NCBI GenBank assembly: GCA_933228675.1
Contig: OW121743.1
Location: 80,267,363 to 80,331,362 of the forward strand
DNA length: 64,000 nucleotides
Direction: 5' to 3'
Source: Stomorhina lunata
Lineage: Eukaryota; Arthropoda; Insecta; Diptera; Rhiniidae
A model generated the notes under the pieces. It saw only the letters and a list, made by a program, of their open reading frames with translations, was not told where the DNA came from and ran no database searches. Positions 2,954 through 58,330 of the stretch are shown in pieces (the stretch's first letter is position 1; the number at the start of each line of letters is the position of its first letter). The position numbers were made by a program, and so were the translations under genes.

Positions 2954-3047
2954 TTTTTTTGGCTTTTTATCAATAAATTAGTCTGTTACATTAATAAATA
3001 AATGTAACAGATTTGGGATCAAATGCAAATACACTTCTTTTTGAATA
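2954..3047 (+). repeat. Dispersed repeat fragment with 11-bp hairpin (copy 1)
   Basis: About 94 bp nearly identical to 46227-46323. It contains an inverted repeat TCTGTTACATT / AATGTAACAGA (2982-3011, 8-nt loop), followed by TTTGGGATCAAATGC and ACACTTCTTTTTGAATAA. In the other copy the fragment lies directly downstream of a hammerhead ribozyme motif; that upstream part is missing here, so this looks like a truncated copy of the same element. Confidence 0.75.
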
Positions 3048-3149
3048 AAAAAATTTTCTATAGAAAAATTTTTGATAAAAAAAATTTTCTATAGTAAAAT
3101 TTTTGATAAAAAAATTTTCTATAGAAAAATTTTTGATAAAAAAATTTAC
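3048..3149 (+). repeat. Short CTATAG-centred palindromic array
   Basis: Three units of about 31-32 nt of the form A-run/T4, CTATAG, A-run/T-run, GATAAA, joined directly to the end of the hairpin repeat. It is the same family as the large arrays at 46.5, 51.3 and 56.5 kb. Confidence 0.85.
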
Positions 3150-3159
3150 GTTTCAACTT

Positions 3160-3345
3160 CGGCTCAGAATGGCAAATGCATTAGTTCGAGAAGTTTTACA
3201 TAGCCTTATACTTAATAACCAGTGACTAGCTGAGTTATGGGATGAACCGCCGCTTTTTGAAAATTAATTTTTTTCAAGTGGGTCTGGCCGTGGATCGAAC
3301 TTGGGGCATAGGCGGATGACTAACCTGCTATACCACGGCGGTTCA
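3160..3345 (-). mobile_element. tRNA-derived SINE, copy 1
   Basis: Read on the - strand, it starts with a tRNA-like head: A box TGGTATAGCAGG (3324-3335) and B box AGTTCGATCCA (3291-3301), the internal RNA polymerase III promoter. A tRNA-unrelated body follows (AGCGGCGGTTCATC, then AACTCAGCTAGTCACTGG, ending near GCCATTCTGAGCCG). A second copy at 12691-12837 shares the body and part of the head. Two copies with the same order support a SINE family rather than a tRNA gene. No clear poly(A) tail or target duplication was identified. Confidence 0.75.
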
Positions 3346-10510: not shown

Positions 10511-12690
10511 GTGTATATGAGATATCACTGAAAGACCAATTGATATAAATATGTGTGATATGGCGTCTTTTTTAGAATTATAAACTTGTCATAACTTTAC
10601 TTTTAATTTATGAATTAGGGGTGAAACATTTTATGATATTTCTTAAAACATGAAATACTCATTTAAAAAGACTTTTTAATCATTTTGTTTACCACGATTT
10701 GCATTCATATAAATCAAACATAAATTTCTTTAGTAATTTTCTTTATGAATGTTATTGATATACATATTTTATTAAAATTTAGCAATAGTTAACTTTCAAC
10801 TCGACATACATATGGTTTTTATAAGTAAATTTTAATGATACGGGTTAATATTATGATGTTAACACGTTGGAAATAGGCTTCGTGGAGCAATATTATGAAC
10901 ATAAAAAAGACTCACAATCATGAACTGTTGTGTACAAAAAGATCACTTAATTCATATATAGTTAAGTGTGATTAAACAAACGAAAATGTGATTGGATACT
11001 CGAATAATTCAAAACGAAATAGTATTTCTCCATTAATTTACACTTGAGAAAATACAAATTGAAATTGAAAAATTAAATTTTTATATTGAGTATTAAGAAA
11101 GTGCAATTATTTCAAAAAAATAATATGAAATTCGTTTATCTCAAAATAATTTTATACATATTTTCTCAATATAAGTTTTTATTTCTTACTTTAAATTTAT
11201 ATTTTCTTTTTGTCGATCTCAAATGGTATTTACATCAAGTCTTAGTAACTGAAAAATGTTTGCAATAAAAATTTATTTCGAAATTTATCAAATTACTTAA
11301 TTTATTTTAAATGCTTTATTTTGGCATATAATATTAATTCCTACTAATTATATTTTAAAGTTTTTGAAATATGTACCACTACACAGTAGGAAATTACGGC
11401 CAAAACCTTCAAAAATGTTTTTAATGTTTTTTGAGAAATTTTAGTGTCAGATTAGAGCTGATATTTCAAATTATGTAATACCAAAATTTTTCCATACTGC
11501 ATTGCCTACTAAGGCTGTAATAATTCTTCAAAGTTTGAATATTTTTTTATATGTTCGTAATAAAATTATTTATATATTTAAACGCATATATAAAATTAGC
11601 TTAATTTTGGAATACGTGTAAAATTTTGACCTTTTCTTTCTTGAATTAAAAAGCAGATAGCTTTTACTAATCAACAGCGCTAATTTCAATATCTTTTGAC
11701 CTATGCTTCACCTAGAAATCTAGCGGTTAAAACAACCATAAAAAATTAAAAAAAAAAAAAATAATACAAAGTTTGATAGTCCGCGAATTTTTTTTAGAGA
11801 TTTTTAGAGGATGAAGCACAACACTCTCTAAAAGCTGAAGTCAATCATAAATAAGCCCTATGAATTTCATATCCATTTGCATCCCATTTCAAGAATTATA
11901 ACGTTTTAAGTAACACCCCTTTTTCAGAATTTTTTGCAATTTATCGCTAAAAAAATCACTACTTGAAGTGAAATATAGGCGTGATGTAATATTTTTATGC
12001 CACTTTCTTTAGTTTCCTTTCTAATTCTATGCAAAATTTATATATAAAGATAAAAACAACAAAATTTTTAATTTTAAATGACTTTTGTATAATTCATTTA
12101 AGTATATAGGTGGTGGTCACATAATTGTGGACGCAATAAATATTTTAAAATCTGCAAATTTAATAATATTCAAGAACTCGTAATTTTTTTTACAAAAATA
12201 TATGTTTATAGTTTTTCTGTAGGTTTGTTAGAAGCATACAAAATCTGGTTTTAAGCTCATAGTATGAACCCAATATCTCTGAAAGGACATATCCGATTTT
12301 GTCAAGTCATGTATTGTAGGATAGGTATTCTTTTCATATATTATCCTATTTAAATAAATAATTTTTATAATCGCCAGCAAAGATTTTTTAGCATGGTTAG
12401 TAGTCCAGTTTTATATGACCAGAGACTTTATATTTTCTTAAAAAAAACTATTTCAGTTTAACTAAAGGTATATTATTTATATACACTAAAAATTTCAAGA
12501 ACAAAAGTCAATAAATTACCAAGTTATTGAGTTTTGGCCGTATTCTCCCACTGTGCACTAGTTTATAATTTCCATATAATATAATTTTCACAACAACATT
12601 TCAATTGGAACAAGTGGTACTTCTCTCAGACAATGAAATGCATCCGATTCTATTTTGTAGACTCATTGAAAGGGACCTACTTTTTAATAC
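10511..12690. other. Intronic AT-rich DNA, nothing recognised
   Basis: Unique AT-rich sequence inside intron 1. A 60-codon frame at 11086-11268 is a chance frame of Phe, Leu and Lys codons. No RNA gene or repeat unit is evident. Confidence 0.5.
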
Positions 12691-12837
12691 CGGCCCCGAA
12701 CGGCAAATGCATTAGTTAGAGAAGTTTTCCATAGCCTAATACTCAATAACCAGTGCTAGCTGAGCTATGAGATGAACCGCCGCTTTTCTTGAAAATTTAT
12801 TTTTTTTTCAAGTCTACCCGAGGATTGAACTTGGGAC
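12691..12837 (-). mobile_element. tRNA-derived SINE, copy 2 (truncated)
   Basis: Same family and strand as the copy at 3160-3345. Shared parts read on the + strand: CGGCAAATGCATTAGTT, TTTCCATAGCCTAATACT, AACCAGTGCTAGCTGAG and GATGAACCGCCGCTTTT. The B box survives as AGTTCAATCCT (reverse complement of 12821-12831), but the sequence stops before the A box, so this copy has lost its 5' end and should not be transcribed from its own promoter. Confidence 0.7.
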
Positions 12838-20279: not shown

Positions 20280-20345
20280 GTGAGTTTTTGGATTGACAAG
20301 ATTTCCAATATTTAAAATTTACTAAAATAATTTACCTTGTTTCAG
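20280..20345 (+). other. Intron 2 (66 bp)
   Basis: Short insect-type intron with donor GTGAGT, a possible branch sequence ACTAAAATAA near 20321-20330, a pyrimidine tract and acceptor CTTGTTTCAG ending at 20345. Removing it joins GG to T and restores a Gly codon, followed by the frame Tyr-Gly-Tyr-Gln-Ser-Met. Confidence 0.9.
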
Positions 20346-21762
20346 TTACGGTTACCAATCCATGGGCTATAATTATGATCCACCCAAGTTTATGTTTTAT
20401 CCTTACTCTCAACAAGATATAGCTGGTAGTTCGGGTAATTATCATCAAGTCGGAGATGGCAAGACTGAAGTTTCCATAGAACCATCATATTCATATGAAT
20501 TACAGCCTCAGAGCTATATAACTCATCAACATGATCAACAAATTGTAGATGTTCCAAAACAAGATGCTGATCCTCAACACTATCATTCGTCACAACAACA
20601 ATATAATGAACCTGTTATCGTTTTGCGCATCCCCGGCCCCGCTAAATATGCAACACATTTACAATCTTTATTGCAGCAATATCTGGAAATAAGAGCCACC
20701 CAATACTTGCGCATTTTGGAAGAAGCTGAACATAGAAATCATTATCAGCAACAGGATCATCATCATCAACAACAAGATCATCAATTGCAGCAGTTAGATT
20801 ATGGTCATGGTGGCATGGCTATTCCCGAAGGCTATGCAGATCCTGTTGAACAACACCAGCATCACCATCATCAGCAAGAGCAACAAGTTGCAGTACAAGA
20901 ACACGAACAAGTTAAGTATGATCATCAAATTGCTGTTACGCCTCAACCAGTTCTTTACCCAGAAATTGATGATGTTTATCATGGCTACAAACACAGACAT
21001 TCCGGTCAGCCTGAGCCCCAACCTCAACAGCCGGTCAAAGATACTAAGGCCTTTTATGGATCTCAAGAGAGTGTAGAGGAACATCAAGCTCCTCAATATG
21101 AACACCAGCAACAATATCAGCCTCAAGTGCAATATCAACATCAGGAACAACCTCAATTCTATTACACACATCAACAACAATATGCTCAGCCTGAAGGGCC
21201 ACCAGTCGTTGTGTATCAAAACGGCTACTTGCCTCCCCAAGGTCAGGCTGAATCTCAGCCTATTTATGTGCCCGAACAACAAATTGAACACGAGCCCTCT
21301 TCAGCCATAGCCGAGAATAATCCACGATCTACTCATACTAAAGTTGTTTTCACCAACAACAAGGAACACTCTCAACAGGACTATCAAATGTATGAATTAC
21401 CCTCTATTAAACCCAATGAGAGACATCCACCCAATTCAGTACCCGACTACCATCAAGATTATCAACAACAACAGTATCAAAGTGCTGAATCACAAGAGAG
21501 TTCGGCTGGATATTCCCAACCTTACAACCCTTCAGAAACCTCAAATGTAGATGTAGTTTCTGTAACCCCAAGACCCTACAATTATCATGCCAATGGCATT
21601 AGGGCTAGAGCCAGGGGAAGGACTGTCCATGCCAGAAGATCTGTTACGGCTTCAGAGGCCGATAGTCGGTTAGAGAAGATACGTGAATACGTACGTGATA
21701 AATTGGGTGCCGAAACCGGAAGTGCAGTCGAATTTCAAACCACTCAAGTGATAGAACCATGA
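20346..21762 (+). CDS. Secreted Gln/His-rich protein, exon 3 (residues 118-589, stop)
   Basis: Main coding exon; the spliced product is 589 residues. Residues 119-206 are Tyr/Gln/Ser-rich. Residues 207-246 form the only non-repetitive block: a Val-Ile-Val-Leu-Arg-Ile-Pro-Gly-Pro-Ala-Lys-Tyr-Ala start, then an amphipathic helix with Leu-Gln-Gln-Tyr-Leu-Glu-Ile-Arg and Tyr-Leu-Arg-Ile-Leu-Glu-Glu-Ala-Glu. This looks like the conserved domain. Residues 250-530 are dominated by Gln, His, Tyr, Pro and Glu. The C-terminus has basic clusters (Arg-Ala-Arg-Ala-Arg-Gly-Arg, His-Ala-Arg-Arg) and a final helix Leu-Glu-Lys-Ile-Arg-Glu-Tyr-Val-Arg-Asp-Lys-Leu. With no cysteine in exon 3 and a signal peptide, a structural extracellular role (cuticle, eggshell, tube lining) is plausible, but the family is not recognised. 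Overlapping frames in this exon are shadows. Confidence 0.9.
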
Positions 21763-41170: not shown

Positions 41171-41873
41171 GATCAAAACTTTTCTTTAGTAAAATTTTGA
41201 TCAAAATTCGTCTTTAGTAAAACTTTGATCAAAATTTGTCTTTAGTAAAATTTTGATTAAAATTTGTCTTTAGTAAAATTTTGAATAAAAAGGTTTTTAG
41301 TAAGATGTTGATCAAAATTGTCTTTACTAAAATTTTGATCAAAATTTGTCTTTGGAAAAATTTTAATCGAAAATTGTCCTTAGTAAATTTTTGATCAAAA
41401 TTTGTCTTCAGTACAATTTTGATTAAAATTTTTATCAACATTTGTATTTAGTTAAATTTTGATCAAAATTTTGTCTTTAGTAAAGTTTTGATGAAAATTT
41501 GTCTTTGGTAAAATTTTGATCAAAATTTATCTTAAACAAAATTTTGATCAAAATTTGTCTTAAGTAAAGTTTTGATCACAATTTTTTTTTAATAACATTT
41601 TGATCAAAATTTTTCTGTAGTAAAAATTTGATCAAAATTTATGTTTAGTAAAATTTTGATCAAAATTTGTCTTTAGTAAAATTTTGATCAAAATTTGTCT
41701 TTAGTAAAATTTTGATCAAAATTTGTCTTTAGTAAAATTTTGATCAAAATTTGTCTTTAGTAAATTTTTGATTAAAATTTTTCTTTACTAAAATGTTGAT
41801 CAAAATTATTCTTTAGTAAAATTTTGATTAAAAATTTTGATCAAAATTTGTCTTTACTAAAATTTTGATTAAA
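41171..41873 (+). repeat. 28-mer GATC-palindrome minisatellite (array 7)
   Basis: Forward units directly continuing from the reversed array 6, so the pair forms an imperfect inverted repeat of roughly 0.7 kb per arm with almost no spacer. Regular at 41640-41770. It ends where the 12-mer array begins. Confidence 0.92.
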
Positions 41874-42942
41874 CAGACGTAGACTAAGACATAGATTAAG
41901 ACATAGACATAGACATAGACTAAGACATAGACTAAGACATAGACTAAGACATAGACTAAGACATAGACTAAGACATAGACTAAGACATAGACTAAGACAT
42001 ATACTAAGACATAGACTAAGACATAGACTAAGACATAGACTAAGACATAGACTAAGACATAGACTAAGACATAGACTAAGACATAGACTAAGACATAGAC
42101 TAAGACATAGACTAAGACATAGACTAAGACATAGACTAAGACATAGACTAAGACATAGACTAAGACATAGACTAAGACATAGACTAAGACATAGACTAAG
42201 ACATAGACTAAGACATAGACTAAGACATAGACTAAGACATAGACTAAGACATAGACTAAGACATAGACTAAGACATAGACTAAGACATAGACTAAGACAT
42301 AGACTAAGACATAGACTAAGACATAGACTAAGACATAGACTAAGATATAGACTAAGACATAGACTAAGACATAGACTAAGACATAGACTAAGACATAGAC
42401 TAAGACATAGACTAAGACATAGACTAAGACATAGACTACGACATAGACTAAGACATAGACTAAGACATAGACTAAGACATAGACAACGTCATAGACTAAG
42501 ACATAGACTAAGACATACCCTAAGACATAGACTAAGACATAGACAAAGACATAGACTAAGACATAGACTAAGACATAGACTAAGACATAGACATAGACTA
42601 AGACATAGACTAAGACATAGACTAAGACATAGACTAAGACATAGACTAAGACATAGACTAAGACATAGACTAAGACATAGACTAAGACATAGACTAAGAC
42701 ATAGACTAAGACATAGACTAAGACATAGACTAAGACACAGACTAAGACATAGACTAAGACATAGACTAAGACATAGACTAAGACATAGACTAAGACATAG
42801 ACTAAGACATAGACTAAGACATAGACTAAGACATAGACTAAGACATAGACTAAGACATAGACTAAGACATAGACTAAGACATAGACTTTTACATAGACTA
42901 AGACATAGACTAAGACGTAGACTAAGACATAGGCTAAGACAA
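41874..42942. repeat. 12-mer tandem array, unit ACATAGACTAAG
   Basis: About 89 units, very homogeneous, with rare variants (ACATATACT, ACGTAG, ACATAG dropped to a half unit near 42590). It is inserted between a forward and a reversed 28-mer array. The - strand frames of 385 and 169 codons (Val-Leu-Val-Tyr and Cys-Leu-Ser-Leu repeats) exist only because the unit is a multiple of three; they are not genes. Confidence 0.96.
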
Positions 42943-44235
42943 AGTGAAATATTTTCCTTAAGACAAAAAAATTTATTAAAGGCAAATTTTTTTAACAAAT
43001 TTTAATCAAAATTTGATGAGATATTTCATTTTAGACAAATTTAAAGTTAAGACAAATTTTTATAGACATTTTTACTAAAGACGGATCTTGAACGAATTTT
43101 TTACTGAAGACAAACTTGAATTAAAATTTTGATCAAAACTTTAACTTAGGACAAATTTTCATAGAAATTTTTATTAAAGATAAATTTTGAACAAAATTTT
43201 TTTGAAGACAAATTTTGATCACAGCTTTAACTAAAGACTAATTTTGATTGAAATTTTGACTAAAATTAAATTTTAATGGAAATTTTTACTGAAGACAAAT
43301 TTGAGTTAAAATTTCTACCAAGGACAAGTTTCCATTAACATTTTTACAAAAGACAAATTTTGGTCGAAATTTTTACTAATTGTAGACAAACATTAATAAA
43401 TTTTGACAGTTTCTGACCAAAATTTTAAGGACAGACAAATTTTTTTAGCAACTTTTGCCAAAATTATTTTTTAAGATAACTTTTGATCAAAATTTCAACT
43501 AAAGACTAATTTTGATCGAAAAATAAATGTTAATGGAAATTTTTACTGAAGACAAATTTGAATTCAAATTTAAAATAATGACAAAGCTTGACCAAAATTT
43601 ATAGTAGACAATTTTTGTTCAAAATTTTAACTAAAGACTAATTTTGATTGAAATTTTGACTAAAATTAAATTTTAATGGAAATTTTTACTGAAGACAAAT
43701 TTGAGTTAAAATTTCTGCCAAGGACAAGTTTCCATTAACATTTTTACAAAAGACAAATTTTGGTCAAAATTTTTACTAATTGTAGATAAACATTAATAAA
43801 TTTTGACAGTTTCTGACCAAAATTTTAAGGACAGACAAATTTTTTTAGCAACTTTTGCCAAAATTATTTTTTAAGATAACTTTTGATCAAAATTTCAACT
43901 AAAGACTAATTTTGATCGAAAAATAAATTTTAATGGAAATTTTTACTGAAGACAAATTTGAATTAAAATTTTTAATAATGACAAAGCTTGACCAAAATTT
44001 TTAGTAAACACAATTTTTGTTCAAAATTTTTACTAAAGACTAATTTTGATTGAAATTTTGACTAAAAGTAAATTTTAATGGAGATTTTCACTGAAGACGA
44101 ATTTGAATTAAAATTTCTACTGAGGACAATTCTCGATTAAAATTTTCACTAAAGACAAATTTCGGTCGAAATTTTTATTAATAACAATTTTTGATTAAAA
44201 TTTTTACTAAAAAAAAATTTTGTTCAAAACTGAAA
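42943..44235 (-). repeat. 28-mer GATC-palindrome minisatellite (array 8, decayed)
   Basis: Strongly diverged reversed units with many GACC, GATTGAAA and GACTAAA centres. A 400-bp block is duplicated in tandem: CTAAAGACTAATTTTGATTG at 43231 and 43631, TTCTGACCAAAATTTTAAGG at 43411 and 43811. Confidence 0.85.
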
Positions 44236-46152
44236 AACATTCAATATCAGAGTATAAAATGTTACAATCACAACCTGAATTTGAATACAATCGCTTTGAA
44301 ACTTGAATCTAAAGACAAATTAAGATTATCTTGTATTTTTTTTTTTAATTTCTAGACTTTCAACTAGATTATGAAAAAATTAGGATTATCAGCAAAATAG
44401 AAGATATATTGAAATATTTTTAATAGAAATCTTTAAAAGACTCAAAATAAGTTTCACCAAACGATTGTATAAACATTTCAATTAACTAAATGAGAATTAT
44501 ATCTAAGTAAATGAGTATCAAACAAGAAGAAACAATAACACTTTTCATCCTAGTGCGAGAAAATCAAGCAATAAAATGAAAATTTGATTCCCCACATTTT
44601 AACAATATAACATCAATTGTACAAAATCTTTATATTAGCATTTTTATTTAATTGCTATTGAGAAAAAATTCTAATTATCATTTATATGAAAAATATTTGC
44701 ATAAATACAATATATTTTGCAAAATTTGCATTATCATGTTAGACTTTGTTTAGATTCTTATGTTTGTAAACAAAAAATATTTATTTGTAGATATTTTGGA
44801 TCAAATAATTCAACAAATGGTAATCCTTTAATAAATTTTTTTTCTTCAAAAATCAACAATATAATCAATGAAGTAAAAGGCGTGGGTAAGACGAATCGAG
44901 AATAAATAAAATATTTTAAGTAAAACTTTTCAATTTCTAACTTTGATACAAAAATTTCTTGTTAATCCTACTCTTACATTTAAAAATTAACGACGCCCCT
45001 GTAAATTCAAATTTTTTTCAAGTGTTAAAATATGTTTGCATCTTTATTCTGTGTATTAACATTTCTCTTGAGTTATGTGTTAAAGTATTTTGTGAAAAAT
45101 TCATATTTAACAACTTGTGGCATTTGATGTAATAAAAAAAAACAGATTCCCTAGAATTTAGTTTCATTTAAAGCCAATCATCCTCCCTTTGGCGTACACC
45201 CCAGCCCCTCTTTTTAGCTGTAATCATAACAGAATTTTCATTTTCTATTTCCCTTTTTCCTCTCGTTTAGCCTTAAGTCTATTTTAATCGCATTTGAGGG
45301 TTTTTTTTTGTTATTTTAAGTAGATTTAAGCCAATTGTTATTTGTAGTTTAAAGTGTAGTTTTTGTATGAGTTTATATCGAATTTAAGCATTAGATTAAT
45401 TGTTGTTTAATTGGGCTTGTAATTTAATCATTTTACTTAAACACTCGAATACATGTTGCAACTTTTGTTTGGTTTTTAGTTGTTGTTGGCAATTGAAAAA
45501 TTTTGTATTTGTGGAATTTTGGTTGAGGATTTCTATTCAAATGGAATTTCTATTTAAATGGAAAAATTTATTGTACAAAATTTCTGATTGTGGTTTTTAA
45601 AATGGAAATATTTAAATGAATTGTTAAGTGAATAAGAAAATTTCTAACCACAAGTAATTTGTTATGTAAAAGGAAAATATTGTCATAAATAATTTGAAGA
45701 AATTATTAAAGTAATTCGGATATAAATACTATATTAATCAACTAAAATAATATGGTTTTACTAATCAAAAACTTACAAAAATCCCCCCATACTATTGGTC
45801 TTATGTTGAAAGGCCCTAACTCTCATTTTTGAAACTTTACAGGAGAAGGTAAAAACAGATTTAAAACAGTAATTAATAAGTTTTTACTTTGTTTCTGATG
45901 CAGGTTATTATTAAAATGAAGAACGAATTTAGTTTTCAAAACTTTTTTTATTTTTAGATATATAAAAAGCAAAATTGAGATAGGACACAAATGTAACTTA
46001 GGAATTTTTTTGTGGCGTTCAAAACAAATTACATTAATTAAAGCTTTCCATAACGAAAGTTTTGTATAGAAAAGCTTTCGATAGCGAATATTTTCTATAG
46101 GTAGTCACTAGATATTGAAGTTGTTCTATAGGAAAACTTTTCTGTCTAAATT
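44236..46152. other. Unique spacer, nothing recognised
   Basis: AT-rich unique DNA with a small CT-rich patch (45181-45215). Open frames of 62-91 codons lack any motif. A short CTATAG-like run (TTTTGTATAGAAAAGC, TTTTCTATAGG) appears at 46055-46135, just before the ribozyme motif. Confidence 0.45.
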
Positions 46153-46219
46153 GGGGATAATCCTCCTGAAGAGATGGCTTAATCAACCATCGAAACGCGT
46201 AGAGGAATTTGGTTTCTCC
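46153..46219 (+). ncRNA. Hammerhead ribozyme motif, type I with minimal stem III
   Basis: All conserved parts are present in order. Stem I 5' strand GGGGA (46153-46157) and TCCTC (46161-46165); core CTGAAGA (46166-46172, matching CUGANGA); stem II GATGG (46173-46177) / CCATC (46187-46191) with a 9-nt loop; GAAA (46192-46195); stem III ACGCGT (46195-46200), two pairs with a 2-nt loop and self-complementary. The cleavage triplet is GUA with H17 = A46201; the stem I 3' strand is GAGGA (46202-46206) and TCTCC (46215-46219, one G-U pair). Minimal stem III hammerheads are known from Penelope-like retroelements, where such RNAs are thought to act as dimers. Host element not identified here; activity inferred from structure only. 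Confidence 0.75.
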
Positions 46220-46226
46220 GCAAACA

Positions 46227-46323
46227 TTTTTTTTGGCATTTTATCAATAAATTGGTCTGTTACATTAATAAATAAATGTAACAGATTTGGGATCAAATGC
46301 AAATACACTTCTTTTTTGAATAA
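46227..46323 (+). repeat. Dispersed repeat fragment with 11-bp hairpin (copy 2)
   Basis: Nearly identical to 2954-3047, with the inverted repeat TCTGTTACATT / AATGTAACAGA at 46256-46285 and the tail ACACTTCTTTTTTGAATAA. It starts 8 bp after the hammerhead motif, so the two probably belong to one retroelement-derived unit. A 91-codon frame (46115-46390) crosses both and is not regarded as coding. Confidence 0.75.
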
Positions 46324-46479
46324 TATTTACATCCCGACTATTTTGTTATTTTTTGGGAAAACTTTTCATTTAAAAGTTTTTTTTCTTTAGGAAAACTTTA
46401 GATACAAAAAGTTTGAAATCAAATGTTTTCCATATTAAATTAAACATTTTCTTTAGAAAATTTTTCGATATCTTAACAT
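46324..46479. other. Junction between the ribozyme-linked repeat and the CTATAG array
   Basis: Short AT-rich stretch with incomplete units (AAAACTTT, GATACAAAAAGTTTG) that grades into the array. No separate feature. Confidence 0.4.
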
Positions 46480-48530
46480 AGAAAGAGTTTCTATAGAACA
46501 TTTTCTGATTAAAAAATTTTCTATTGAAAATTTTACGATATAAAAAAATTTTTATAGAAAATTTTACTATATGAAATTTTCTATTGAAAATTTAACGATA
46601 TAAAGAAAATTTTTCGACATAAAAAATTTTTTACAGAAAATTTAACGATATAAAAAATTTTCTATATATATCATTTTAGATATAAAATATTTATATGTAA
46701 TTTTACGATACAAAAAATTTTCTATCGAAAATTTTACAATATAAATCTTAAGATATAAAAAATTTTACAATATAAAAAAATGTATATGGAAAGTTTGACG
46801 ATATAAACAATTTTCTATATTTAATTTCATGAAAGAAAAAAATTTTACGATACCAAAAATTTTCTAACGAAAATTTAACGATATAAAAATTTACTACAGA
46901 AAATTTTACGATATAAAAAAATTTCGATAGAAAATTTTACGATATAAAAAAATTTTGATAGAAAATTTTACGATATAAAAAATTTTCTTTAGAAAATTAT
47001 ACGATATACAATTTTTTTTAGAAAATTTTACGATATAAAAAATTTTCTGTAGAAACTTTTACGATATAAAAAATTTTCTATAGAAAATTTTACGATATAA
47101 AAAACTTCTTTATTTTACGATATAAAAAATGTTCTGTCGAAAATTTTACGACATAAAAAATTTTCAATAGAAAATTTTACGATATAAAAAATTTTCTAAA
47201 GAAAATTTTGCGATATACAAAATTTTCAATAGCAAGCATTTTTATGATATACAAAATTTTTTATTAAATGTTTGACATCAAATGTTTTCCATATAAAATC
47301 TTCCAAATTTCAAAGTTTTATGTACGAAATTAAAAATTGTCTTTAAAAAATTTTACGATATAAAAAATTTTCTATAGAAAATTTTACCATATAATAAATT
47401 TACTACATAAAATTTTAAGATACAAAATTTTCTAAAGAAAATTTTACGATACAAAATTTTCTAAAGAAAATTTTACGAAATAAACATTTTCTATAGAAAA
47501 TTTTACGATATAAAAAATTTTCTATAAAAAATTTTACGATATAAAAAATTTTCTATAGAAAATTTTACGATATAAACAATTTTCTGTAGAAAATTTTACG
47601 ATATAAAAAATTTTACGATATACAAAAATTTCTATAGAAAATTTTACGATATAAAAAATTTTCTATAGAAAATTTTACAATATAAAAAATTTTCTAGAGA
47701 AAATTTTACGATATAAAAAATTTTCTATAGAAAATTTTACGATATAAAAAATTTTCTATAGAAAATTTTACGATATAAAAAATTTTATATAGAAAATTTG
47801 ACGATAAAAACATTTTCTATAGAAAATTTTACGACGTAAAAAATTTTCTATAGAAAATTTTACCATGTAAAAAATTTACTATAGAAAATTTTACGAGATA
47901 AAATTTTCTTAAGAAAATTTTACGATGTAAACATTTTCTATAGAAAATTTTACGATATAAAAAACTTTATAGAAAATTTTACGATATAAAAAATTTTTTA
48001 TAGGAAATTTTACGATATAAAAAATTTTCTATAGAAAATTATAGGATATACAAAATTTTCTAAAGAAAATTTTACGATATGCAAAATTTTCTATAGAAAA
48101 TTTTACAATATAAAAAATTTTCTATAGAAAATTTTACGATTTAAAAAATTTTCTATAGAAAATTTTACTATATCAAAAATTTTATATAAAAAATTTTACG
48201 ATATAAAAAATATTCTATAGAAAATTTTACGATATAAAAAATTTTATATAGAAAATTTGACGATAAAAACATTTTCTATAGAAAATTTTACGACGTAAAA
48301 AATTTTCTATAGAAAATTTTACGACATGAAAAATTTTCTATAGAAAATTTTACTATATAAAAAATTTTATTTAAAAAATTTTACGATATAAAAAATTTTC
48401 TATATAATAAATTTACAAAATTTATAAAATTGTACGATATAACAAATTTTCTATAGAAAATTTTACGAAATAAAAAATTTTCCATATAAAATTTTACGAT
48501 ACAAAAATTTTCTCCAGAAAGATAGATTTG
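46480..48530 (+). repeat. 31-mer CTATAG-palindrome minisatellite (array A)
   Basis: Units consist of A4T4, CTATAG, A4T4 (a perfect 22-bp palindrome) and an ACGATATAA spacer, 31 nt in all. They are decayed at both ends and regular at 47490-47780 and 47960-48360. Many units lose one or two bases, so the period wanders between 28 and 32. Confidence 0.93.
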
Positions 48531-56442: not shown

Positions 56443-56493
56443 TTTTTGTTATTATAAAATTTTTGTTATTATAAAATTTTTGTTATTATAAAA
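56443..56493 (+). repeat. Three exact copies of a 17-mer
   Basis: TTTTTGTTATTATAAAA three times without a change, directly abutting the homogeneous 31-mer array. Confidence 0.95.
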
Positions 56494-58330
56494 TTTTTTC
56501 ATATCAAAAAATTTTCTATAGAAAATTTTTCATATCAAAAAATTTTCTATAGAAAATTTTTCATATCAAAAAATTTTCTATAGAAAATTTTTCATATCAA
56601 AAAATTTTCTATAGAAAATTTTTCATATCAAAAAATTTTCTATAGAAAATTTTTCATATCAAAAAATTTTCTATAGAAAATTTTTCATATCAAAAAATTT
56701 TCTATAGAAAATTTTTCATATCAAAAAATTTTCTATAGAAAATTTTTTGATATCAAAAAATTTTCTATAGAAAATTTTTCATATCAAAAAATTTTCTATA
56801 GAAAATTTTTCATATCAAAAAATTTTCTATAGAAAATTTTTCATATCAAAAAATTTTCTATAGAAAATTTTTCATATCAAAAAATTTTCTATAGAAAATT
56901 TTTCATATCAAAAAATTTTCTATAGAAAATTTTTCATATCAAAAAATTTTCTATAGAAAATTTTTCATATCAAAAAATTTTCTATAGAAAATTTTTCATA
57001 TCAAAAAATTTTCTATAGAAAATTTTTCATATCAAAAAATTTTCTATAGAAAATTTTTCATATCAAAAAATTTTCTATAGAAAATTTTTCATATCAAAAA
57101 ATTTTCTATAGAAAATTTTTCATATCAAAAAATTTTCTATAGAAAATTTTTCATATCAAAAAATTTTCTATAGAAAATTTTTCATATCAAAAAATTTTCT
57201 ATAGAAAATTTTTCATATCAAAAAATTTTCTATAGAAAATTTTTCATATCAAAAAATTTTCTATAGAAAATTTTTCATATCAAAAAATTTTCTATAGAAA
57301 ATTTTTCATATCAAAAAATTTTCTATAGAAAATTTTTCATATCAAAAAATTTTCTATAGAAAATTTTTCATATCAAAAAATTTTCTATAGAAAATTTTTC
57401 ATATCAAAAAATTTTCTATAGAAAATTTTTCATATCAAAAAATTTTCTATAGAAAATTTTTCATATCAAAAAATTTTCTATAGAAAATTTTTCATATCAA
57501 AAAATTTTCTATAGAAAATTTTTCATATCAAAAAATTTTCTATAGAAAATTTTTCATATCAAAAAATTTTCTATAGAAAATTTTTCATATCAAAAAATTT
57601 TCTATAGAAAATTTTTCATATCAAAAAATTTTCTATAGAAGATTTTTCATATCAAAATATTTTCTATAGAAAATTTTTCATATCAAAAAATTTTCTATAG
57701 AAAATTTTTCATATCAAAAAATTTTCTATAAAAAATTTTTCATACCAAAAAATTTTTTATAGAAAATTTTTCATATCAAAAAATTTTCTATAGAAAATTT
57801 TTCATATCAAAAAATTTTCTATAGAAAATTTTTCATATCAAAAAATTTTCTATAGAAAATTTTTCATATCAAAAAATTTTCTATAGAAAATTTTTCATAT
57901 CAAAAAATTTTCTATAGAAAATTTTTCATATCAAAAAATTTTCTATAGAAAATTTTTCATATCAAAAAATTTTCTATAGAAAATTTTTTATATCAAAAAA
58001 TTTTCTATAGAAAATTTTTCATATCAAAAAATTTTCTATAGAAAATTTTTCATATCAAAAATTTTCTATAGAAAATTTTTCATATCAAAAATTTTCTATA
58101 GAAAATTTTTCATATCAAAAATTTTCTATAGAAAATTTTTCATATCAAAAAATTTTCTATAGAAAATTTTTCATATCAAAAAATTTTCTATAGAAAATTT
58201 TTCATATCAAAAAATTTTCTATAGAAAATTTTTCATATCAAAAAATTTTCTTTAGAAAGTTTTTTATATCAAAAAATTTTCTTTAGAAAGTTTTTTATAT
58301 CAAAAAATTTTCTATAGAAAATTTTTTATA
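56494..58330 (+). repeat. 31-mer CTATAG-palindrome minisatellite, highly homogeneous (array C)
   Basis: Roughly 58 near-identical units: TCATATC, A6T4, CTATAG, A4T4. Only a handful of substitutions occur (for example near 56745, 57640-57760 and 57990). Three consecutive units at 58051-58140 are 30-mers lacking the same A. Compared with arrays A and B the spacer is CATATCA rather than ACGATATAA. The uniformity points to recent amplification. Confidence 0.97.

Follow-up and report, generated by a model that had tools for sequence, protein, structure and literature searches.

A hammerhead-like motif on the plus strand of a 64,000-nucleotide stretch of the Stomorhina lunata genome (contig OW121743.1; the whole stretch is referred to as the window) raises the question of whether a fly repeat carries a functional ribozyme and, if it does, which kind of element spreads it. 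Direct reading of the sequence identified a complete type I hammerhead at 46153-46219, which is the sole match to type I, II and III hammerhead descriptors on both strands of the whole 64 kb. Its parts are: the catalytic core C3-A9, CUGAAGA (CTGAAGA in the DNA; 46166-46172); a 5-bp stem II, GAUGG/CCAUC (46173-46177/46187-46191), with the 9-nt loop CUUAAUCAA; GAAA (46192-46195); the minimal self-complementary stem III ACGCGU (46195-46200), also seen in alignments within and between the two families described below; A17 (46201); and a stem I made of an inner helix, UCCUC/GAGGA (46161-46165/46202-46206), and an outer helix, GGGGA/UCUCC (46153-46157/46215-46219, one G-U pair), separated by a 3-nt/8-nt internal loop. 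Cleavage is predicted between A46201 and G46202, after a GUA triplet that is a minority form among the genomic copies. Every element named in the preliminary description of this DNA (CTGAAGA, the 5-bp stem II, GAAA, ACGCGT, GUA, the two 5-bp stem I helices and the asymmetric loop) is present at these positions. The core nucleotides (C3 U4 G5 A6 N7 G8 A9, G12 A13 A14 A15.1, U16.1 H17) are unmutated in the window copy and the core-adjacent pairs 1.1-2.1, 10.1-11.1 and 15.1-16.1 are all formed, the core and core-adjacent-pair criteria being those used for hammerheads in PMC3088659.

The loop II arm AAUCAA (46181-46186) and the arm UUGGUU of the stem I internal loop (46209-46214) can form 6 bp, a predicted loop I-loop II pseudoknot whose pairing the preliminary description does not mention; 6 bp are attained in 8% of loops after shuffling and in 4% of random ones, which makes the pairing only mildly unusual when taken alone. 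Pseudoknots between loop II and the stem I internal loop are known in other hammerheads (PMC3088659, PMC7936874), and about 40% of the hammerheads described in PMC3088659 likely use one. With stems of full size and probable pseudoknot pairing between its loops, the motif differs from the minimal hammerhead of Penelope-like elements (PLEs), whose form we took in part from PMC7761336.

A simulation with the dinucleotide composition of the window (102 million flanks of a core) showed that motifs with a compact stem III and 5 bp or more in both stem I and stem II should arise by chance 2.7e-4 times per window, and about 4 times per Gb at genome scale, so that in a genome scan the motif alone is not decisive and the genomic copies are. 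An equally good outer stem I helix was present in 15-20% of random flanks. The isolated 67-mer folded no better than its shuffles (z 0.12), with the hammerhead fold 1.1 kcal/mol above the minimum free energy and the inner stem I present in 36-42% of the ensemble, indicating that the hammerhead fold is only partial in this isolated molecule. A covariance-model hit above threshold, one of the checks put forward at the outset, did not materialise: Rfam at its gathering score gave no match in the whole window; RF00163 aligned end to end with the window copy at 16.7 bits and with a GUC copy at 23.1 bits, against a cut-off of 34; and for 8 other stretches of the repeat, 29 kb in all, the Rfam listing at E values of up to 10 contained no hammerhead. 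These scores lie below the RF00163 gathering score, a figure that is a library threshold rather than a functional test.

The genomic copies were given the main weight. The 101 bases 46140-46240 have 414 candidate copies in the genome (728 Mb, 104 contigs), and all of the 40 that were scored, the window's own copy included, match at 95-100%; 3589 candidates were obtained with 901 bases taken from one inverted locus. Both counts are first-look candidate numbers, not a census. The mapped set consists of 41 loci (40 fetched plus the window copy), picked by their similarity to the ribozyme or to the ribozyme-bearing unit. In these 41 loci the ribozyme is part of a non-coding unit of 464 bp (32% GC; longest ATG frame 32 codons, or 79 codons if merely stop-free), arranged in head-to-tail tandems in some of them: ribozymes are spaced 462-469 bp apart in L031, L032, L034 and L038, and L031 carries three ribozymes in each of two opposed arms, at a spacing of exactly 464 bp. 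Among the 74 unit segments mapped, 17 are longer than one unit, the longest single one measuring 1146 bp. Folded as a 464-nt circle, the L031 unit reaches -119.9 kcal/mol versus a shuffle mean of -84.1 (z -6.0; 0/600 shuffles as low), with 66% of its nucleotides paired. L031 as a whole is a near-perfect palindrome, with segments more than 99% identical to the unit and 256 bp between its two central ribozymes.

The ribozyme was compared in 66 full regions found by BLAST, after dropping 7 partial ones. The core including GAAA, U16.1 and H17 is intact in 65/66, and the core together with the core-adjacent pairs in 62/66. The cleavage triplet is GUC in 57/66, GUA in 8/66 and AUC in 1/66. The 6-bp pseudoknot is possible in 56/66 copies and is fully Watson-Crick (AACCAA/UUGGUU) in 47/66. 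The expectation of the preliminary description that other copies should retain stems I and II was largely borne out, and so was its reading of the locus as a type I hammerhead within a small non-autonomous fly element. For stems I-III, pairing was scored as paired cells per helix and not copy by copy; the alignment of this first family (A1), in which the invariance of stem II is by selection, contains no helix changed on both sides, and its pairing does not exceed that of shuffles. Stronger conservation of the ribozyme was not seen.

A second, diverged family (1764 candidates, 40 scored; 20 loci fetched) differs from the first by about 18-26%. In most of its members the core is CUGAUGA and the triplet GUC, stem II, inner stem I and stem III are as in the first family, and the pseudoknot has 4 bp. 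Several of the copies carry damage. In the alignment of 29 sequences from the two families stem II is paired in 98.6% of cells, and no hammerhead helix has a pair altered on both sides; 14/29 sequences, those of the second family, cannot form one pair of the outer stem I and one of the pseudoknot. The 21 second-family loci examined showed no head-to-tail tandem spaced by one unit. Confined 3' ends are not claimed for this family, because its alignments, made against a single reference copy, break off at +176 to +187, possibly where that copy itself ends.

Both families bear on the view that a chance hammerhead-like sequence, catalytically inert, sits within a repeat. About 4 such motifs per Gb are expected, the Rfam score is sub-threshold, and a family could have amplified one chance motif; however, the prevalence of GUC and of the fully Watson-Crick AACCAA/UUGGUU pairing among the copies argues against an inert sequence, as does a second family in which, at this divergence, CUGAUGA is found together with GUC and stems I-III are largely retained. 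We therefore regard chance as most improbable, and read the motif as a predicted self-cleaving ribozyme within a mobile unit.

The two families also share a hairpin of 11-12 bp downstream of the ribozyme (46256-46285, plus strand in the window; fold z -4.0 for the 98 nt 46226-46323). This hairpin is paired at 99.7% in the 29 sequences, and 3 of its 12 pairs are changed on both sides, although the three compensated pairs separate the two families and so represent a single branch of the tree, changed at three sites. We propose that it may serve as the recognition signal for the reverse transcriptase. The hairpin pattern gave 0 matches in viral and bacterial contigs. A stem II-specific pattern run on IMG/VR viral contigs gave two matches on the minus strand (L001, 776-805; L002, 611-640), near-identical to one another, with the same stem II, a closed stem I and loops that may pair; these look like a different hammerhead, by eye of type III.

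How the unit moves was approached through the ends of its copies. The 3' ends of 56/74 segments fall in two zones, 31 at unit positions 174-190 and 25 at 211-221, around CTTCTTTTTGA and TTATTTTTTGA; two of the remaining 3' ends are artefacts of split segments. None of the 5' ends (0/74) lies in these zones, and they are scattered over the unit. Preferred 3' ends with scattered 5' ends are the pattern of target-primed reverse transcription with internal starts and 5' truncation; Helitron, MITE and foldback readings, suggested by the sharp break at 46141 and by the inverted pairs, were ruled out on these same ends. Among the segments with a usual 3' end, 52/56 continue upstream beyond the point where the ribozyme would cut and 7 cross a further such point, indicating that the templates were circles or uncleaved multimers rather than cleaved linear monomers; the proportion is biased upward by the ribozyme-based choice of loci, from which copies starting at the cleavage site would escape, whereas the existence of read-through copies is unaffected.

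The orientation of neighbouring segments (gap of 60 bp or less) is strongly asymmetric, with 21 head-to-head pairs and 1 tail-to-tail pair. Usual 3' sites are found at both outer ends in 13/21 head-to-head pairs, a figure that rises to 15/21 when the pieces into which segments of L031 and L033 had been split are counted as one. In 15/21 there is no gap between the inner ends, which abut or overlap by a few bases. Target-site duplications of 13 bp surround whole head-to-head blocks in L027 and L036, so that these pairs likely entered as one event. Flanking direct repeats of at least 10 bp occur in 11/50 blocks versus 4.7% of mismatched flanks, part of them being satellite sequence.

Part of this picture could also be produced if the hammerhead were an idle passenger of a tandem or inverted repeat moved by LINE twin priming or by DNA-level satellite expansion. 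Twin priming also makes inverted copies, 8/21 head-to-head pairs (6 after joining) have an outer end, or two, that does not lie at a usual 3' site, many copies adjoin a 31-bp AT-rich satellite, and the ribozyme is not specially conserved. Twin priming does not, however, predict usual 3' ends on both sides of most pairs; the copies are dispersed, each with its own flanks (except L012 and L013), and do not form one array; nearly all ribozymes keep the core and its adjacent pairs; and both the ribozyme and the hairpin are kept by the second family. On balance this route appears unlikely.

The window itself contains two pieces of the unit. Copy A (46141-46355, plus strand), which carries the ribozyme, is by unit mapping a 5'-truncated monomeric copy running from unit position 1 to the second usual 3' end; its local alignment extends to 46363, into the flanking repeat. 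It interrupts a diverged 31-bp satellite, the break running from about 46140 to 46340. Position 46141 was considered as the true end of the element and rejected, since it is the truncation point of the window copy. Two copies of the 12-bp direct repeat GGAAAACTTTTC (46131-46142 and 46356-46367) flank copy A as a candidate target-site duplication, whose weight is limited: 0/3000 local upstream flank pairs reach 12 bp, whereas repeats of this length are reached by 55% of flank pairs in the downstream satellite and by 24% window-wide. Because this locus has a single ribozyme, the cleavage as a dimer considered in the preliminary description would need tandem loci elsewhere or two molecules. Copy B (2955-3048, plus strand) is a 5'-truncated fragment of unit positions 87-180 that lacks the ribozyme, is 96.8% identical to the unit and has a usual 3' site at its end.

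The 31-bp AT-rich satellite (unit AATTTTCTATAGAAAATTTTTCATATCAAAA) lies at 46510-48511 and 56480-58300 and is perhaps a favoured target; similar sequence makes up 23% of the 36-mers sampled from the window. An unrelated dispersed repeat (3147-3300 and 12678-12830, 82% identical) follows satellite units beside copy B, and long simple-repeat tracts at 41828-43005, open in several frames, could pass for genes. One long conserved gene was found in the window, at 20326-21762, with 133 relatives; among the 120 listed, the named ones all come from flies and mosquitoes, the best being Cochliomyia hominivorax (58%) and Lucilia cuprina (56%), followed by Musca (47%) and Stomoxys (45%), so that by this gene the host is most likely a calyptrate related to the blowflies. 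None of the 22 longer frames of the window that were scanned has a reverse transcriptase or GIY-YIG domain. A phage-holin match in a frame over the element was weak, below its cut-off, and was taken as chance.

The enzyme that copies this unit into DNA would likely be borrowed from another mobile element. A GIY-YIG family search of the genome gave 14 candidates and 2 matches, with no intact PLE found. One match is a Slx1-like gene; the other is a frame of 143 codons with 30 relatives, the named ones in Haematobia and Eurosta, and one of these relatives carries PF26215, which we take to be a Penelope-type domain. No long frame was found just upstream of the 143-codon frame. About 160 bp downstream of it lies a minimal hammerhead (L053:4884; G000 C2, about 141354383) with CUGAAGA, a stem II of 7 bp and a stem III that is nearly absent. 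Judged from these sequence features, the genome contains a PLE-type remnant that carries a hammerhead of its own.

The Penelope connection made in the preliminary description remains plausible, in a different form. The window motif could have been a remnant of a PLE's own pseudo-LTR, given that tandem pseudo-LTRs with type I hammerheads are a feature of PLEs (PMC7761336) and that a PLE-type frame with a minimal hammerhead exists in this genome. Instead, the motif belongs to a separate 464-bp non-coding, retrozyme-type tandem unit: a reverse transcriptase with GIY-YIG between pseudo-LTRs, the mark of a PLE, is absent from the unit, whose longest ATG frame is the short one given above; the best matches between the PLE remnant locus and the unit span 19 bp or less; and the stems and loops are of the full, not the minimal, type. 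Descent from a pseudo-LTR is accordingly considered very unlikely. PLEs have, on the other hand, been named as likely partners of retrozymes because both occur in the same genomes (PMC7761336), and a PLE enzyme is described as nicking and extending both target strands, preferring AT-rich DNA and starting inside its RNA, with the element carrying a hammerhead (PMC11167929).

The reading that we favour, at a probability of about three in four, is that 46141-46355 is a 5'-truncated copy of a 464-bp hammerhead repeat, likely a retrozyme of the animal type, whose RNA is predicted to cleave itself, to circularise and to be copied by a PLE-type reverse transcriptase. In the proposed cycle, tandem copies would be transcribed and each hammerhead would cut after the last base of GUC or GUA, an activity assisted by the loop I-loop II pseudoknot and perhaps also by two ACGCGU stems III pairing with one another; the 464-nt RNA would then be closed by a host ligase, and a Penelope-type enzyme would bind the circle, likely at the hairpin. 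Synthesis of cDNA would start at the TTTTTGA sites, which follow the cleavage site at distances of about 120 and 155 nt; if it were initiated on both strands of the nicked DNA, the products would be head-to-head pairs whose 5' ends meet, as could be expected from the two-strand nicking and extension by the PLE enzyme (PMC11167929). That the copies preserve the scars of this whole cycle (pseudoknotted hammerhead circles, handover by the covarying hairpin to a Penelope-type enzyme, TTTTTGA starts on two strands and head-to-head insertions) is a more tentative proposal, to which we give somewhat less than even chances.

The element resembles several known systems and is identical to none. With the animal non-LTR retrozymes of coral, mussel and axolotl (as described in PMC7229834) it shares the type I hammerhead in short tandem repeats of low GC without coding capacity, present in many copies, target-site duplications of more than 4 bp where these occur, a strongly self-paired RNA and, as in some of them, a weak stem III; the repeat structure, copy number, composition and duplications are observed directly in the fly genome. 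Its 464-bp unit is just above the sizes given there (repeats of 150-450 bp, RNAs of 170-400 nt), and it differs further by the 6-bp pseudoknot that loop II and stem I may form, and by its preferred 3' ends and its copies arranged head to head (the text of PMC7229834 contains neither 'inverted' nor 'head-to-head'). Animal retrozymes are expressed as linear and circular RNAs (PMC7229834), forms that are predicted for the fly element.

Like PLEs, and especially PAc of Anolis (PMC11167929), it has a hammerhead upstream of a structured segment where reverse transcription would start, and it may share the AT-rich targets and the action on both DNA strands; unlike them, it has no reading frame and its hammerhead is full-size. 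The pseudoknotted hammerheads of HDV-like RNAs and of D. pseudoobscura, Musca, Rhagoletis and Hermetia (PMC7936874) are likewise found in part in fly genomes and have a 5-bp first helix I followed by an internal loop that pairs with loop II; they are of type III with helix III open (the Musca one is so reported), and the termite ones are reported as isolated motifs, whereas the fly element is a type I hammerhead in a high-copy repeat. Core and stems also agree with the pseudoknot hammerheads of PMC3088659, although a 464-bp mobile unit is not described in the available part of that article. Insects are mentioned in passing in PMC7229834, and no retrozyme study of a calyptrate fly was found among the openly licensed papers listed. 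Judged from sequence comparison, what is likely new within animal retrozymes is the larger unit, the likely pseudoknotted type I ribozyme and the scars pointing to two-strand priming on circular or multimeric RNA.

The findings add a calyptrate fly with two large families of the retrozyme type, and a ribozyme of type I layout whose loops likely form a Watson-Crick pseudoknot. They also bear on how retrozymes return to DNA, as the preferred 3' ends, the read-through of the cut site and the head-to-head pairs point to circular or uncleaved templates and to two-strand priming of the PLE kind, at exact sites that are offered for testing retrozyme insertion. If this is true, the proposed partnership between retrozymes and PLEs would move from co-occurrence to a mechanistic link.
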